Below, piece after piece: positions 34,090 through 38,917 of a stretch of DNA of 64,000 bases. Below the pieces are notes generated by a model. The model saw only the letters and a list, made by a program, of their open reading frames with translations, was not told the origin of the DNA and made no database searches. Position 1 is the first letter of the stretch; each line of letters starts with the position of its first letter. The translations under genes and the position numbers were made by a program. The stretch spans positions 1 through 64,000 of the forward strand of contig PWHV01000022.1 in assembly GCA_003555025.1 (NCBI GenBank). Reading direction: 5' to 3'. Source of the DNA: Methanomassiliicoccaceae archaeon (lineage in GTDB: Archaea; Thermoplasmatota; Thermoplasmata; Methanomassiliicoccales; Methanomethylophilaceae).

Positions 34090-34935
34090 TCACTCCTTGC
34101 GGGAGACCGCCATCGCCTCCCTGATCAGGCGGGCGGCGAGGGCGGCGGTGCTGCCGTTGTCATAGGGAGGCGAGACCTCCACCACGTCGAAGCCCACCAT
34201 GCGCTCGCCGATGGCGCCCATCAGCTTCTTCACGTCGTAGGGGGTGATGCCGAACGGCTCCGGCGTACCCGTCCCCGGCGCGAAGGCGGGGTCTACCCCA
34301 TCGATGTCCACCGTCAGGTAGACGCGGTCGTTGCCGATATGGTCCAAGACCTTGTCGATGGCCTGCTCGATGCCGTGATCCAATATGGAGAAGGAGTCCA
34401 CGAAGAACGGAAGGCCCGCATCCTCCTCCTCCTTGGAGATGGAGCGGGCGCCGATCACCGCCACGTTGCCCTCGCCCACCTGGTCGGCGCAACGGCGCAT
34501 GACGCAGGCATGGCTGTTGCCCAGGCCCATGTACTCCTGGCGGAAATCGGTGTGCGCGTCAACGGAGATGACCGATATCCCATCGCCGAAGGCCTTGACC
34601 GCCGGGATGGTGACGGAATGCTCGCCGCCGATGGTTATGGGGAACTTGCCAGCGTCCACGATGCGGGAGGTCTCGATGTAAGCCGACTCGACCATATGGT
34701 CCACTTGCACATGGTCCTCGAGGTCGCCCATGTCATGGACCTTCAGATCGCCGATGTCGTGCCCGTGCTCGAAGAGGTGCATCTCGAAGTTGTACGACGC
34801 CTTGCGCACCGCATGCGGGCCGTCGCGGCAGCCCGCCCGGAACGACGTGGTGCGGTCGAAAGGCACCCCCATTATCACGTAATCGGCATCCTCGAAGGAA
34901 TGCTCGGCGTCGGCGAAGCTGACACCAGGTATCAT
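34090..34935 (-). CDS. speB: Agmatinase (ureohydrolase family)
   Basis: Hydrolyses agmatine or a related guanidino compound, 281 residues. All binuclear manganese ligands are visible: His106 in GGEHS, Asp126, His128 and Asp130 in SVDAHTD, and Asp210 and Asp212 in VDIDGVD. It lies seven bases downstream of the aIF5A gene. In haloarchaea an agmatinase acts in the route to the modified lysine of aIF5A, so the true substrate may be deoxyhypusine-type agmatinylated aIF5A. That link is inference from context. Confidence 0.93.
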   Translation of the reverse strand: MIPGVSFADAEHSFEDADYVIMGVPFDRTTSFRAGCRDGPHAVRKASYNFEMHLFEHGHDIGDLKVHDMGDLEDHVQVDHMVESAYIETSRIVDAGKFPITIGGEHSVTIPAVKAFGDGISVISVDAHTDFRQEYMGLGNSHACVMRRCADQVGEGNVAVIGARSISKEEEDAGLPFFVDSFSILDHGIEQAIDKVLDHIGNDRVYLTVDIDGVDPAFAPGTGTPEPFGITPYDVKKLMGAIGERMVGFDVVEVSPPYDNGSTAALAARLIREAMAVSRKE

Positions 34936-34942
34936 GGTTACT

Positions 34943-35320
34943 TCACATCAGGCGCTGCCGGCCCATGGCGGTGAGGTACATCACCTCTCCGCCCTCCTCC
35001 AGAGGCGAAGTTAAGTCCTCGGGGATGGGCATGGTGATGGTCTCATAGGTCTCCATGTCCATTAGCTGGGCCTCGTCGTTGCCGATGGAGAGCACCTGGG
35101 CGCGGCGCTTGTCGATCATCGGGACCTGCGCTTTGGCTTTCACCGGGGATACCAAGGTCCTCTTGGAGCCAGAGAATATACCGACGCCTTCTATCCTGGC
35201 CTTGGCGCCGCCGTGCTTACCCGGCTTGGAGGTGTTCATCGAGGTGATTTTGCAGGGCTCGTCATCGATGTTGACGTACCTGTTGACCTTCAGTTCTGAG
35301 ACTTCCTTCTGTTCCCACAT
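34943..35320 (-). CDS. eif5a: Translation factor aIF5A
   Basis: Hypusine-bearing elongation/initiation factor, 125 residues. The modified lysine is Lys35 in SKPGKHGGAK. The N-terminal SH3-like and C-terminal OB domains are both present. It is the first gene of an operon with agmatinase and probably the TMEM165-like gene. A near-leaderless promoter precedes it. Confidence 0.97.
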   Translation of the reverse strand: MWEQKEVSELKVNRYVNIDDEPCKITSMNTSKPGKHGGAKARIEGVGIFSGSKRTLVSPVKAKAQVPMIDKRRAQVLSIGNDEAQLMDMETYETITMPIPEDLTSPLEEGGEVMYLTAMGRQRLM

Positions 35321-35385: not shown

Positions 35386-36447
35386 TCACCGGCGCCGTTT
35401 GCGCGGACGCTTGCCCTTGGCGGCCTTCTTCGGCGGGTCCGGGTAGCGCCGCTTGATGTCCTCCACCCGGGACTCGAACTGCTCCAGCAGCTCGTCGCCG
35501 CGGAATCCGCCCCCGTAATTATCGAGGCGGGCGGCTATCGCCGCCTTGGAGGCCAAGGCACGGGAGATGTTCCCCCTCTGCCAGTACGGCGCCCGGTGCA
35601 CCGACGGGTGCTGGTAGATGATGCCGTGCTTGGGGGGCTTCTTGTTGGAGCGCAGGTGGCGGAACATGGCCTTCTCCGCCCCCAGCAGCTGCAGCGTGGA
35701 CGCAGGCAGGCCCGACAGCCTCCCCAGCCCACCGGCCAGGGATATCATCCTCGCCGCCAGGTTGGGGTTCAGCAGGGCGCAGAGGTTAGGGGCCACCGGC
35801 TCGATGTTGTCGGCTATGTAGGATTCCAGCACCGCTCGTCTATCGTAAAGGTCTACCAAACTCTGAGCCATACCCTTTATGCTCTCAAGGTCCTCGTCAT
35901 CCATGTCCGCGCCCATCGATTCTAGGTCGAGCCCGAGCTCTTCGATCACGCCCTCGCGGCCGCCGTGCTCGGCGATCAGCTGCGCGTAGCGCCTTTCACG
36001 GGCATGGTCGGCCAGCTCGGGGAAGTGCAGGCCGTACCATTCGTGCAGCCTCTCGTTCATGAGGTTGCAGGTCTCGATGAGGTCGTCCAGGCCTCTGATG
36101 GCCTGCACCAGGTTGCGGTCCCTGGCCAGCGGCTCGCCGGTCCTCAGCCTGCCCAGCCTCACCATCACCTCATGCATGAGCTCCGGGCCGTGGGTGCTCT
36201 CGTCCGGACTTATGAACGAGGAGTCGAAGAGCCCCGGTCTGCCCAGCAGGGACTGCCTCTGCTCCGAGACCCTCACCTTCCTCTCTCCGACGAGGTCCTT
36301 CTCCTCCTCCAGCACCTCGCCCCTTTGAACCCTCGCCAGCCTCTGGGCTATCTCCTCCGCCTCGGGCGGGAACACCCTGCTGTCGATGACGCGGCTACCT
36401 TCGCAGAGGAACGAGCCGAACCACTTGGTCACCAGGAAAGAGACCAT
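35386..36447 (-). CDS. nop5: Nop5 (Nop56/58) C/D-box RNP core protein
   Basis: Scaffold of the box C/D guide RNP for 2'-O-methylation of RNA, 353 residues. The N-terminal domain binds fibrillarin, a coiled coil follows, and the NOP domain carries LLGAEKAMFRHLRSNKKPPKHG. The C-terminus is a lysine/arginine tail (PKKAAKGKRPRKRRR). ATG 36447 follows GGGGGAT and starts one base after the aldolase stop. Its usual partner, fibrillarin, is 18 kb away at 54151. Confidence 0.94.
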   Translation of the reverse strand: MVSFLVTKWFGSFLCEGSRVIDSRVFPPEAEEIAQRLARVQRGEVLEEEKDLVGERKVRVSEQRQSLLGRPGLFDSSFISPDESTHGPELMHEVMVRLGRLRTGEPLARDRNLVQAIRGLDDLIETCNLMNERLHEWYGLHFPELADHARERRYAQLIAEHGGREGVIEELGLDLESMGADMDDEDLESIKGMAQSLVDLYDRRAVLESYIADNIEPVAPNLCALLNPNLAARMISLAGGLGRLSGLPASTLQLLGAEKAMFRHLRSNKKPPKHGIIYQHPSVHRAPYWQRGNISRALASKAAIAARLDNYGGGFRGDELLEQFESRVEDIKRRYPDPPKKAAKGKRPRKRRR

Positions 36448-36448
36448 C

Positions 36449-37057
36449 TCATCCCCCTTTGATGCGGTTGACCTCCGCATCATCGAACTCCACCGCCTTC
36501 TCTCCCAGTATGTGCTGCAGCCGGGCGTGGAACTCCATCTCCTCCATGCGGTTGAAGGCCGCCATGAGGTCCTCGCCGGCGGCGAAGGCGCCGTGCTTCT
36601 CCATCAGCAGGGCGTTGCTTTGCGAGTTCTCGGCCACGGAGTCCACCAGACGCTTGGTGCCCGGGGTTCCGTACGGGCTCAAGGGCACCTCTCCTAAGAG
36701 TATGGCTCCTTCGGGCGTGAGACTTCCCAGCAACCTCTCCCCGGCCAGGGCCAGGGCGGTGCAGTAGGGCGGGTGGCTGTGCACTATGGCGCCCACGTCC
36801 GGGCGGCGTCGGTAGTACTCGAGATGCATGTGCACCTCCACCGACGGCCTCCCCGGGCCGATCACATCGCCGTCCTTGCCCATCCTGACCATCTCCCCGG
36901 CCCGCAGCAGACCCTTGTTCTTTCCTGACGGGGTTATCAGCACGTCGCCGTCTTCCAGCCTCACGCTGACGTTCCCTCCCGATGCGAATGTCAGGCCACG
37001 GTCGTACATCATCTTGCAGACCCTGGCGAGCTCCTCCCTGGCCTCCGGCTCGTTCAT
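36449..37057 (-). CDS. Class II aldolase (fuculose-1-phosphate aldolase type)
   Basis: Zinc-dependent sugar-phosphate aldolase of 202 residues. The motif SGGNVSVR is at 27-33, Glu74 is the probable catalytic acid, and the zinc ligands are His93 and His95 in IVHSHPPY plus a later His in EKHGAF. It begins one base after the mtnA stop. In methanogens MtnA plus a FucA-type aldolase recycles 5-deoxyribose 1-phosphate, or methylthioribose 1-phosphate, to DHAP and an aldehyde. Confidence 0.9.
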   Translation of the reverse strand: MNEPEAREELARVCKMMYDRGLTFASGGNVSVRLEDGDVLITPSGKNKGLLRAGEMVRMGKDGDVIGPGRPSVEVHMHLEYYRRRPDVGAIVHSHPPYCTALALAGERLLGSLTPEGAILLGEVPLSPYGTPGTKRLVDSVAENSQSNALLMEKHGAFAAGEDLMAAFNRMEEMEFHARLQHILGEKAVEFDDAEVNRIKGG

Positions 37058-37058
37058 C

Positions 37059-38060
37059 TCATTCCCCTCCCATTGAGGATATCTCCTCCGCGCTCAGAAT
37101 CCCCTTCTCGGTGATGTAGCCGCTCACATATCGCGCCGGAGTGACATCGAAAGCAGGATTCAGGACATTGGCGCCGTCCGGCGCCAGGTCCGTACCGGCG
37201 ATCACGGTGAGCTCCTCCGGCGAGCGGTCCTCTATTACAATGTCCTCCCCGCTGGCGGTTGACAGGTCGAAGGTGGACACCGGGGCGGCAACGTAGAACG
37301 GTATGTCAAGCTCCTTGGCGAGCACCGCCTTCTCGTAGGTGCCGATCTTGTTGGCGAAGTCCCCGTTGGCGACGACGCGGTCGGCGCCCACGATGACCAG
37401 GTCCACACCCTGGCGCATGAGATGCCCCGAGGCGCCATCGACCATCACCGCGTGGTCGATGCCCTCCTGCAGCAGCTCCCAGGCGGTTAGCTGCATGCCC
37501 TGCAGCCGCGGCCGGGTCTCGGACGCGTAGACCATGAACCTCCGCCCCTCGCTCCATGCTCGACGGATGGGGGCCAGCGCCGTGCCCACGTCCACGGTGG
37601 CCAGGGCGCCGGCGTTGCAGTGGGTCATGACCCGGTGCCCGTCCTCGATGAGGGGCGCTCCGTGGCTGCCGATGGCGACGCATTTCTCCACTATGGCCGC
37701 GGCGTAGCGCTCAGCGGCCTCGACGGGGCCCTCGCCCTCCTCGGTCCGCGACGCCATCCAATCGACGGCATAGAACAGGTCGTTGGCGGTGGGCCTCGCC
37801 GACTTGATGGTGGCCGCGGCCTCGGCGAGGTCCTCTCCAGCAAGCGCCGCCAGGGCCATGCCGTAGGCCGCAGCGGCGCCGATGGACGGCGCCCCGCGGG
37901 TGACCATGTCCCGTATGGCCTCCGCCACCGCGGCACTGCTGCGGTAGCGCACCATCTCCAGCGAGCGGGGGAGCAGGCGCTGGTCTATCATGACCAGCTC
38001 GCCGTCCTCGAACCATAGCGCCCTTACGTCCTGCTCCCCGTCCGCGGTCTTCACCTTCAA
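37059..38060 (-). CDS. mtnA: Methylthioribose-1-phosphate isomerase (also 5-deoxyribose-1-phosphate isomerase)
   Basis: An aIF2B-fold aldose-ketose isomerase of 333 residues. Key segments are VTRGAPSIGAAAAYG, MTHCNAGALATVDVGTALA, YASETRPRLQGMQLTAWEL (catalytic cysteine is in the preceding THCN), VGADRVVANGDFANKIGTYE with the catalytic Asp, and NPAFDVTPA. It starts at TTG 38060 after GGGGTGA. It is the first gene of an mtnA-aldolase-nop5 operon, divergent from a V4R-type regulator. Confidence 0.94.
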   Translation of the reverse strand: MKVKTADGEQDVRALWFEDGELVMIDQRLLPRSLEMVRYRSSAAVAEAIRDMVTRGAPSIGAAAAYGMALAALAGEDLAEAAATIKSARPTANDLFYAVDWMASRTEEGEGPVEAAERYAAAIVEKCVAIGSHGAPLIEDGHRVMTHCNAGALATVDVGTALAPIRRAWSEGRRFMVYASETRPRLQGMQLTAWELLQEGIDHAVMVDGASGHLMRQGVDLVIVGADRVVANGDFANKIGTYEKAVLAKELDIPFYVAAPVSTFDLSTASGEDIVIEDRSPEELTVIAGTDLAPDGANVLNPAFDVTPARYVSGYITEKGILSAEEISSMGGE

Positions 38061-38080: not shown

Positions 38081-38173
38081 ATGGGCCCGGTCGTAGATTA
38101 AACTGATGGGCCACATTCCCATAGGGGAACCGATACGACAACATTAATTAAGAAATATCGTTATGGCCCATCG
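38081..38173. promoter_or_regulatory. Divergent promoters with repeated ATGGGCC operator
   Basis: ATGGGCC occurs at 38081-38087 and 38106-38112, and in inverse at 38165-38171; GATGGGCCA (38105-38113) and TGGCCCATC (38164-38172) are perfect 9-bp inverted copies. The first two flank the minus-strand TATA box for mtnA (AGTTTAATCT, 38095-38104), and the third covers the expected start of the regulator transcript, whose TATA-like ATTAATTAAG is near 38142. The layout fits one repressor controlling both directions. Confidence 0.6.
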
Positions 38174-38179
38174 GTCCCC

Positions 38180-38917
38180 ATGAACGAAACCGCCTTTGAT
38201 GTGTATTCTACCAACACCGGTTTGAGGCAGATATGCAACCCGGTGCGTCAGAAGATACTGGCGGAGCTTCAAGGCAAGGACCTCTCCCTCACGGAGATAG
38301 CCACTTTGACCGGGAAGGCGCAGTCCACCCTGTCCGTTCATTTGGACAAGATGGTCAAGGAGGAGCTGGTCTCCTCCCGTGACGACCCGGCGGACAACCG
38401 TCGCAAGATCTTCTACCTCTGCTCCCGGGCGGTGGCGAAGTCCACACCGCCGTCGCAGGAGATGAACGAGTACCTGCACCAGACGGTGCTGGAAGCCGCA
38501 GGGACGCCCTCCTCGTTCCTCAAAGGGATGATGAGGTCCATACTCATCGGCCTCGAGGCCATCGGGCTGTCCATAGATCCCGCCATGTACGAGATAGGCA
38601 CGGAGGTCGGCAAGGCCCTGGCGACGGCGGTGGAGTCGGAGAGCGTCGAGGACATCATATCCGAGCTGCAGGAGTTCTACGAGCTGCATGACATGGGCGA
38701 GGTCTGCGTCTACACCTTCGTGCCGCTCACCATCATCATCAGGGACGATTACGACACCAACCCCCAGACGGGGATCAAGCTCTGCCTGCTCCACGAAGGG
38801 GTCTTCAAGTCGGTGCTCGAGGAGCGCACCGGGCGCGGCTTCCGCATCGCTGAGAACGAGTGCTTCGGCATCGCCAACAACTACTGCAAGTTCGTCATCG
38901 AGCCCGTCTACAACTAG
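38180..38917 (+). CDS. Winged-helix regulator with C-terminal V4R domain (MsvR-like)
   Basis: A 245-residue transcription regulator. Residues 12-85 are an ArsR-type winged helix (RQKILAELQGKDLSLTEIA, then TLSVHLDKMVKEELV). Residues 115-243 are a V4R ligand- or redox-sensing domain ending ENECFGIANNYCKFVIEP. Cysteines 176, 202, 228 and 236 lie in the V4R part. Methanogen MsvR has the same order and responds to redox through cysteines. It is divergent from mtnA, and the repeats between them suggest it controls that operon and itself. Confidence 0.85.
   Translation: MNETAFDVYSTNTGLRQICNPVRQKILAELQGKDLSLTEIATLTGKAQSTLSVHLDKMVKEELVSSRDDPADNRRKIFYLCSRAVAKSTPPSQEMNEYLHQTVLEAAGTPSSFLKGMMRSILIGLEAIGLSIDPAMYEIGTEVGKALATAVESESVEDIISELQEFYELHDMGEVCVYTFVPLTIIIRDDYDTNPQTGIKLCLLHEGVFKSVLEERTGRGFRIAENECFGIANNYCKFVIEPVYN

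Follow-up and report, generated by a model that had tools for sequence, protein, structure and literature searches.

Genes and features of the mtnA-msvR locus

The DNA analysed here is a 64,000-nucleotide stretch of contig PWHV01000022.1 from a Methanomassiliicoccaceae archaeon, referred to below as the window. A run of genes headed by mtnA leads away from one side of a 119-bp intergenic region, and a gene for an MsvR-type regulator (msvR) leads away from the other. The features, in window coordinates, are as follows.

34090-34935, minus strand: arginase/agmatinase family gene (domain match; same order in relatives)
34943-35320, minus strand: translation factor 5A gene (domain match; same order in relatives)
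35386-36447, minus strand: nop5/Nop56 C/D-box RNP subunit gene (PF01798), starting 2 bases beyond the aldolase stop
36449-37057, minus strand: class II aldolase-family gene (PF00596; no NCBIfam equivalog above cut-off)
37059-38060, minus strand: mtnA, S-methyl-5-thioribose-1-phosphate isomerase (TIGR00512 equivalog, 370.9 bits against a cut-off of 279)
38081-38087, plus strand: ATGGGCC copy 1
38094-38101, minus strand: probable mtnA TATA box by position, TTAATCTA on the minus strand, in an invariant run (5/5)
38104-38109, minus strand: TGATGG (CCATCA on the minus strand), invariant 5/5, candidate BRE/TFB-side flank of the mtnA TATA box
38106-38112, plus strand: ATGGGCC copy 2, inside GATGGGCCA at 38105-38113, plus strand
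38144-38150, plus strand: TTAATTA, probable regulator-gene TATA box, in an invariant run (5/5)
38163-38166: ATGG at copy 3, the only invariant part there (5/5)
38165-38171, minus strand: ATGGGCC copy 3, inside GATGGGCCA at 38164-38172, minus strand (TGGCCCATC on the plus strand)
38180-38917, plus strand: MsvR-type regulator of 245 aa, with a winged helix at 7-88, a V4R domain at about 108-244 and Cys202, Cys228 and Cys236

An initial annotation of this DNA had read a salvage operon for deoxyadenosine or methylthioadenosine (MTA) here and had linked nop5 to it; the salvage operon stands, and nop5 does belong to the same run of genes. Salvage of MTA and 5'-deoxyadenosine by MtnA and a class II aldolase is described in PMC6302742, and mtnA, the aldolase and MTA phosphorylase are all present in this genome; in contrast to that system, the aldolase here has no specific model above its cut-off (82.8 bits with the MtnB dehydratase model TIGR03328, under the cut-off of 137.05). 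The salvage reading is sound because MTA phosphorylase is also encoded, elsewhere in the genome. The order mtnA-aldolase-nop5 recurs in 24 of 27 loci from relatives, the other three being cut by contig ends.

Relatives here are members of the order Methanomassiliicoccales, for which 147 genomes were searched and a regulator match was found in 111. After exclusion of eight matches weaker than 1e-25, msvR is divergent from mtnA within 350 bp in 93 of the remaining 103 genomes, with 104-297 bp between matches. In six of the other ten the genes are divergent at 428-1496 bp, and in four mtnA is on another contig or has no listed match. These counts span related genomes and are not independent. No mtnA was found in the 3.7-kb locus of an MsvR-like gene from another class of the phylum (L131). 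The pairing bears on a reading that we consider unlikely, in which the regulator no longer controls mtnA in the window's genus and the pair persists only within a conserved run of genes. The genes downstream of mtnA also keep their order, the window's mtnA-msvR region has no recognisable MsvR box, and mtnA occurs in 141 of the 147 genomes, including genera without an msvR match, so that mtnA does not depend on the regulator. Against this, the close divergent pairing is kept while the other side of msvR varies, which suggests a shared promoter with a use.

The resemblance of the regulator to MsvR, also proposed in the initial annotation, is borne out by its domains, by three cysteines at the published spacing and by a score of 216.5 bits with the NCBIfam MsvR model NF053755. 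That score is 3.5 below the equivalog cut-off of 220 bits, and the protein is therefore filed as MsvR-type rather than as the NCBIfam equivalog; eight members of the order, orthologous and adjoining mtnA, pass at 225-238 bits. It is the sole full-length MsvR match in the genome. Pfam HTH_5 is above its cut-off and V4R, at 27.9 bits, is under its cut-off of 31, while structure prediction (mean pLDDT 92.7) gives a winged helix of the MarR/ArsR type followed by a V4R-type domain, so that Pfam and structure together give the N-terminal winged helix and C-terminal V4R domain of MsvR. The last three cysteines (C202/C228/C236) are separated by 26 and 8 residues, as are C206, C232 and C240 of MaMsvR, a match of spacing and not of alignment; the MaMsvR residues were studied by mutation, according to PMC3729527.

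Sequence searches of the PDB gave matches confined to the winged helix. In comparisons made with the predicted structure, the V4R fold (about 108-244) resembles those of MopR (5kbi; Z 10.7, rmsd 3.2, 130 aligned), DmpR (6iy8; Z 10.6) and MJ1460 (2oso; Z 10.9, rmsd 6.5). The V4R-like folds of BcsD, H-NOX and TRAPP score equally high, and ligand or zinc binding thus does not follow from the fold. The cysteines of MopR presumably have the same spacing as those of the window's regulator. Zinc is held in MopR-type V4R domains by three Cys and one Glu (PMC10715001); the position of that Glu is not fixed in the order's regulators, with E225 in 19 of the 46 members that have C202 and C236.

The ATGGGCC repeats and their conservation

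The initial annotation saw an operator in three copies of ATGGGCC, two of them forming perfect 9-bp inverted repeats, which flank the TATA box of mtnA and cover the start of the regulator gene. The three copies and the inverted pair GATGGGCCA/TGGCCCATC are indeed present, and copies 1 and 2 lie on either side of the probable mtnA TATA box. The regulator start is not covered by copy 3, which ends 8 bases short of the ATG at 38180. When the 119-bp intergenic region was dinucleotide-shuffled 2000 times, 3.1% of the shuffles contained a perfect 9-bp inverted repeat, 3.35% contained some 7-mer in three copies and 0.3% contained both. Across the window ATGGGCC occurs 19 times against 17.6 expected, and 13 of 537 equal-length tiles combine a perfect 9-bp inverted repeat with a 7-mer present three times. 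The combination is mildly unusual for its own intergenic region and is not unusual for the window.

A genome-wide search found GATGGGCCA 21 times in 1.4 Mb, with two copies at this locus, 18 within plausible reading frames and one outside any convincing gene. ATGGGCC was rejected as a genome-wide operator, given the 18 copies inside genes. The inverted pair at this locus is the only close one in the genome. One copy is found in front of the gene for MTA phosphorylase, which catalyses the preceding step of the pathway, at 96 bases from the IGIIGGSG codons; it was rejected as an operator because ATGGGCC is missing at that place in all five other genomes of the genus.

For motif work, 61 of 67 msvR-mtnA loci read were used, those in which the two gene starts lie no more than 260 bp apart; the other six were excluded. 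ATGGGCC is found in five of the 61 regions; these are all five members of the window's genus that have the region (the window's own genome and four others), each of which retains at least one copy, and none of the 56 regions elsewhere contains it. The individual copies are less stable. In the nearest relative, whose regulator is 93% identical, copy 1 reads ATCGGTCC and copy 3 reads AATGGCCCTTC. The three other members have GATGGCAT or GATGGCCC for copy 2, and where copy 3 would stand they have GATGGGCC, in the opposite sense. No conservation of copy 1 was found in the four other members of the genus. The initial annotation had staked its operator on conservation of the repeats, and here the outcome is divided: copy 1 and the inverted 9-mers are lost in relatives, whereas within the genus copies 2 and 3 keep their ATGG cores.

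Invariant runs of at least four columns in the five-way alignment are TAGATTAA, TGATGG, TTAATTA and ATGG; in the same comparison only 11 of 70 fourfold sites of the regulator gene are invariant. Some constraint on the ATGGGCC motif is therefore real, since besides the TATA boxes only the TGATGG and ATGG runs are invariant. As judged from this alignment, constraint acts on both TATA boxes and on the ATGG cores at copies 2 and 3, but does not extend to copy 1 or to the inverted symmetry. Immediately upstream of the mtnA TATA box, where archaeal promoters have their BRE, stands TGATGG; in other clades CCAAT-like letters are found here. We infer the TATA and BRE roles from these positions.

Positions 38106-38122 also form an ATGGG-N7-CCCAT dyad, the only one in the window. 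At the same place the nearest relative has the longer-armed ATGGGCC-GGA-GGCCCAT, and the other members of the genus have no such dyad there.

The constrained cores might instead be explained by an ATGG(G/C)CC core that a different factor recognises, or by a leader or core-promoter element peculiar to the genus and shared by the two divergent genes. The invariance of TGATGG and ATGG at both promoters, set against the fourfold sites, argues for such an element. The spacing of the cores differs (57 and 50 bases) and the comparison has only five sequences, and we regard this explanation as improbable.

MsvR boxes at mtnA and hdrA

The MsvR box in the literature is TTCGTAN4TACGAA, and every known msvR gene is said to have it upstream (PMC3729527). 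No box of this type was found in the window's 119-bp region, where the best match has 5 mismatches (p=0.81) and only scattered half-sites occur, TATCGT at about 38156 and TACGA at about 38133, on either side of the msvR TATA box. Likewise, no conserved dyad was found in the window's genus (score 22 of 30, p=0.545), g23 (p=0.39), g28/25 (p=0.10) or g11 (p=0.775). The dyad of g8 (p=0.015) was rejected as an MsvR box, being the TATA-like TTATTAAC. In genus g30 all eight mtnA-msvR regions have the MsvR box between the TATA boxes of the two genes, at one or two mismatches, and in g20 the palindrome ACGAACGTTCGT occupies the same place; such dyads exceed column shuffles in both genera (g20, p<0.005; g30, p<0.015). 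Locus L182 has an exact box at the msvR start beside mtnA. Over the 61 regions, TTCGTA occurs in 18 against 4.7 expected and TATCGT in 20 against 5.5 expected, counts uncorrected for kinship. In the g20 palindrome (L025, L035, L090, L092 and L093) the half-sites are reversed in order relative to the known box, and at L035 it extends to a 22-bp perfect palindrome.

In the window's own genome, at up to two mismatches, there are 9 box places and 18 for the reversed pattern. The box has no excess as a class here, and the hdrA place described next rests on conservation rather than on counts. HdrA belongs to the enzyme that reduces the CoM-CoB disulfide. The best box in the genome, TTCGTGAATATACGAA, has one mismatch and is flanked by a zinc-ribbon gene and an HdrA-type gene:

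L158 1501-1516 (G000:C7:67412-67427): own hdrA box, exact TTCGTN6ACGAA

TTCGTN6ACGAA is found in front of hdrA in all six genomes of the genus, five of which match the published box exactly. The exact box occurs in 29 of the 147 genomes of the order, and in 16 of the 29 loci read it stands in front of hdrA (five in g1, one in g4, five in g8 and five in g10; at the g1 locus L167 the hdrA start was seen in the sequence, with no tblastn match). At these places, 17 with the window's own copy (L158, L164, L166-L169, L172, L174, L175, L177-L179, L181, L183, L184, L186 and L187), the box lies 259-291 bases from the hdrA start where measured, and its central four bases and flanks vary. The whole order has 35 exact boxes against 21 reversed-control matches, and g1, g4, g8 and g30 have 25 against 2. 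The eight g30 loci with an exact box have it away from hdrA, near genes for an Mrp-type iron-sulfur carrier (L189, L195), a universal stress protein (L191, L194, L195) and a HEAT-repeat protein (L188, L190, L192). The remaining exact boxes lie within a reading frame (L173), at a locus without an hdrA match (L180) or on short contigs (L176, L185). Genera g6, g7 and g9 (34 genomes, with no or weak regulator matches listed) have two exact boxes, those of L173 and L180, neither with hdrA at the locus.

Two other repeats were seen in the genus. A CACCCC(T)...TTTCCGATGGAAA-like inverted repeat lies near the hdrA box in all six genomes (about 1570-1590 in L158; also L164 and L166-L169). A TTCGTN6ACGAA palindrome common to two genomes (1501-1516 in both L170 and L171) precedes a gene whose product begins MKRNFKTDPN, presumably ribosomal protein L18e.

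The hdrA box bears directly on the proposed operator. If ATGGGCC were a genus-specific operator through which the regulator represses mtnA and itself, this would account for the three copies with their unique close inverted pair, for the restriction of the motif to the genus and for the invariant ATGG cores. The copy 1 sequence and the inverted symmetry are gone in the nearest relative and beyond, however, and most genomic copies of the 9-mer are inside genes. All 29 aligned orthologues share the winged-helix stretch KAQSTLSVHLDKM unaltered, and it changes little in a wider set, the recognition helix being the same as in clades with TTCGT-type dyads. It would therefore be surprising if the regulator had moved to an unrelated operator such as ATGGGCC. 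ATGGGCC is probably not the regulator's site, because the known MsvR site is preserved elsewhere in the same genus, ahead of hdrA. We consider this operator very unlikely; the motif looks like an ordinary promoter feature. The initial annotation is right in what it saw in the sequence and about the regulator and the pathway, and probably wrong about the operator.

The reading that we prefer, to which we assign a probability of about 0.6, is that the region is a divergent promoter in which ATGGGCC is not the operator, and that the regulator recognises TTCGTA-type half-sites, with its one well-kept box in the genus at hdrA. The stretch would be a pair of compact divergent promoters between the MsvR-type thiol/V4R regulator and the mtnA-aldolase-nop5 run. 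What is constrained in copy 2 most likely belongs to the core promoter next to the mtnA TATA box. The conserved ATGG at copy 3 lies downstream of the probable TATA box of the regulator gene and ahead of the start codon, and neither copy 1 nor the perfect 9-bp symmetry is shared beyond the window's species. The regulator most likely recognises TTCGTA-type half-sites, as in other methanogens, and would act through such boxes as an MsvR-type repressor or switch, with hdrA its best-supported candidate target in the genus. The mtnA/msvR promoter pair may be an old target whose canonical box has been lost here, where the regulator would either act through degraded half-sites (TATCGT, TACGA) or no longer act. 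Gene order, protein family and domains, the cysteines, the lack of the box in this region, its occurrence at hdrA and the poor conservation of the repeats are observations, whereas we infer DNA binding, repression and redox control for the window's system.

Redox cysteines and comparison with known MsvR systems

In MaMsvR, the reduced protein binds and represses, and oxidation releases it. Redox sensing by the window's regulator is possible, judging from the presence of the cysteines. Both C202 and C236 are kept in 46 of 67 members of the order examined and both are lost in 21, and the order-wide MsvR alignment places the losses in g2, g3, g5, g8, g10, g11, g12 and g14; the C228 position is Thr in all f6 members read. 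The mtnA gene is still divergent within 260 bp in 19 of the 21, and hdrA boxes persist in g8 and g10, where both cysteines are lost in all members read. A pure thiol switch is complicated by this persistence. A broader model, which we put forward tentatively and at less than even odds, is that in this order an MsvR-type regulator couples the salvage of SAM by-products to the thiol/disulfide state of energy metabolism. In one family it would control hdrA by way of a strictly kept box; in another it would control mtnA-aldolase-nop5 and itself by way of a box between the divergent promoters; in the lineages that lost the cysteines and keep the pairing and the hdrA box, the V4R pocket would sense something other than thiol oxidation.

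Among open-licence papers, no literature was found on MsvR in Methanomassiliicoccales or on MsvR with mtnA, and MsvR together with heterodisulfide reductase led to PMC3960522 and to PMC11619418, the latter mentioning MsvR nowhere but among its references. Although MsvR has been studied as a redox regulator of methanogens, little is known of its regulon, and the comparison yields predicted targets. These are hdrA in four genera that belong to one family and, in g30, mtnA/msvR together with the regions beside the genes for the Mrp-type iron-sulfur carrier, the universal stress protein and the HEAT-repeat protein. Because redox cysteines have been lost in nature without loss of the gene pairing, the question whether MsvR is purely a thiol switch can be tested directly. 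The mtnA pairing and the hdrA box, rather than the ATGGGCC repeat, are the points of note.

The known MsvR proteins of Methanosarcina acetivorans and Methanothermobacter thermautotrophicus, as described in PMC3729527, combine a winged helix with a V4R domain and have a small divergent or upstream promoter region adjoining the gene, as here. The same source reports that Methanosarcina MsvR did not bind the oxidative-stress promoters tested. Known msvR genes are said to have the box upstream, whereas the window's msvR has no box upstream and the box of its genus lies at hdrA. The partner of msvR is fpaA in Methanothermobacter, with none in Methanosarcina, according to PMC3729527; here it is mtnA.
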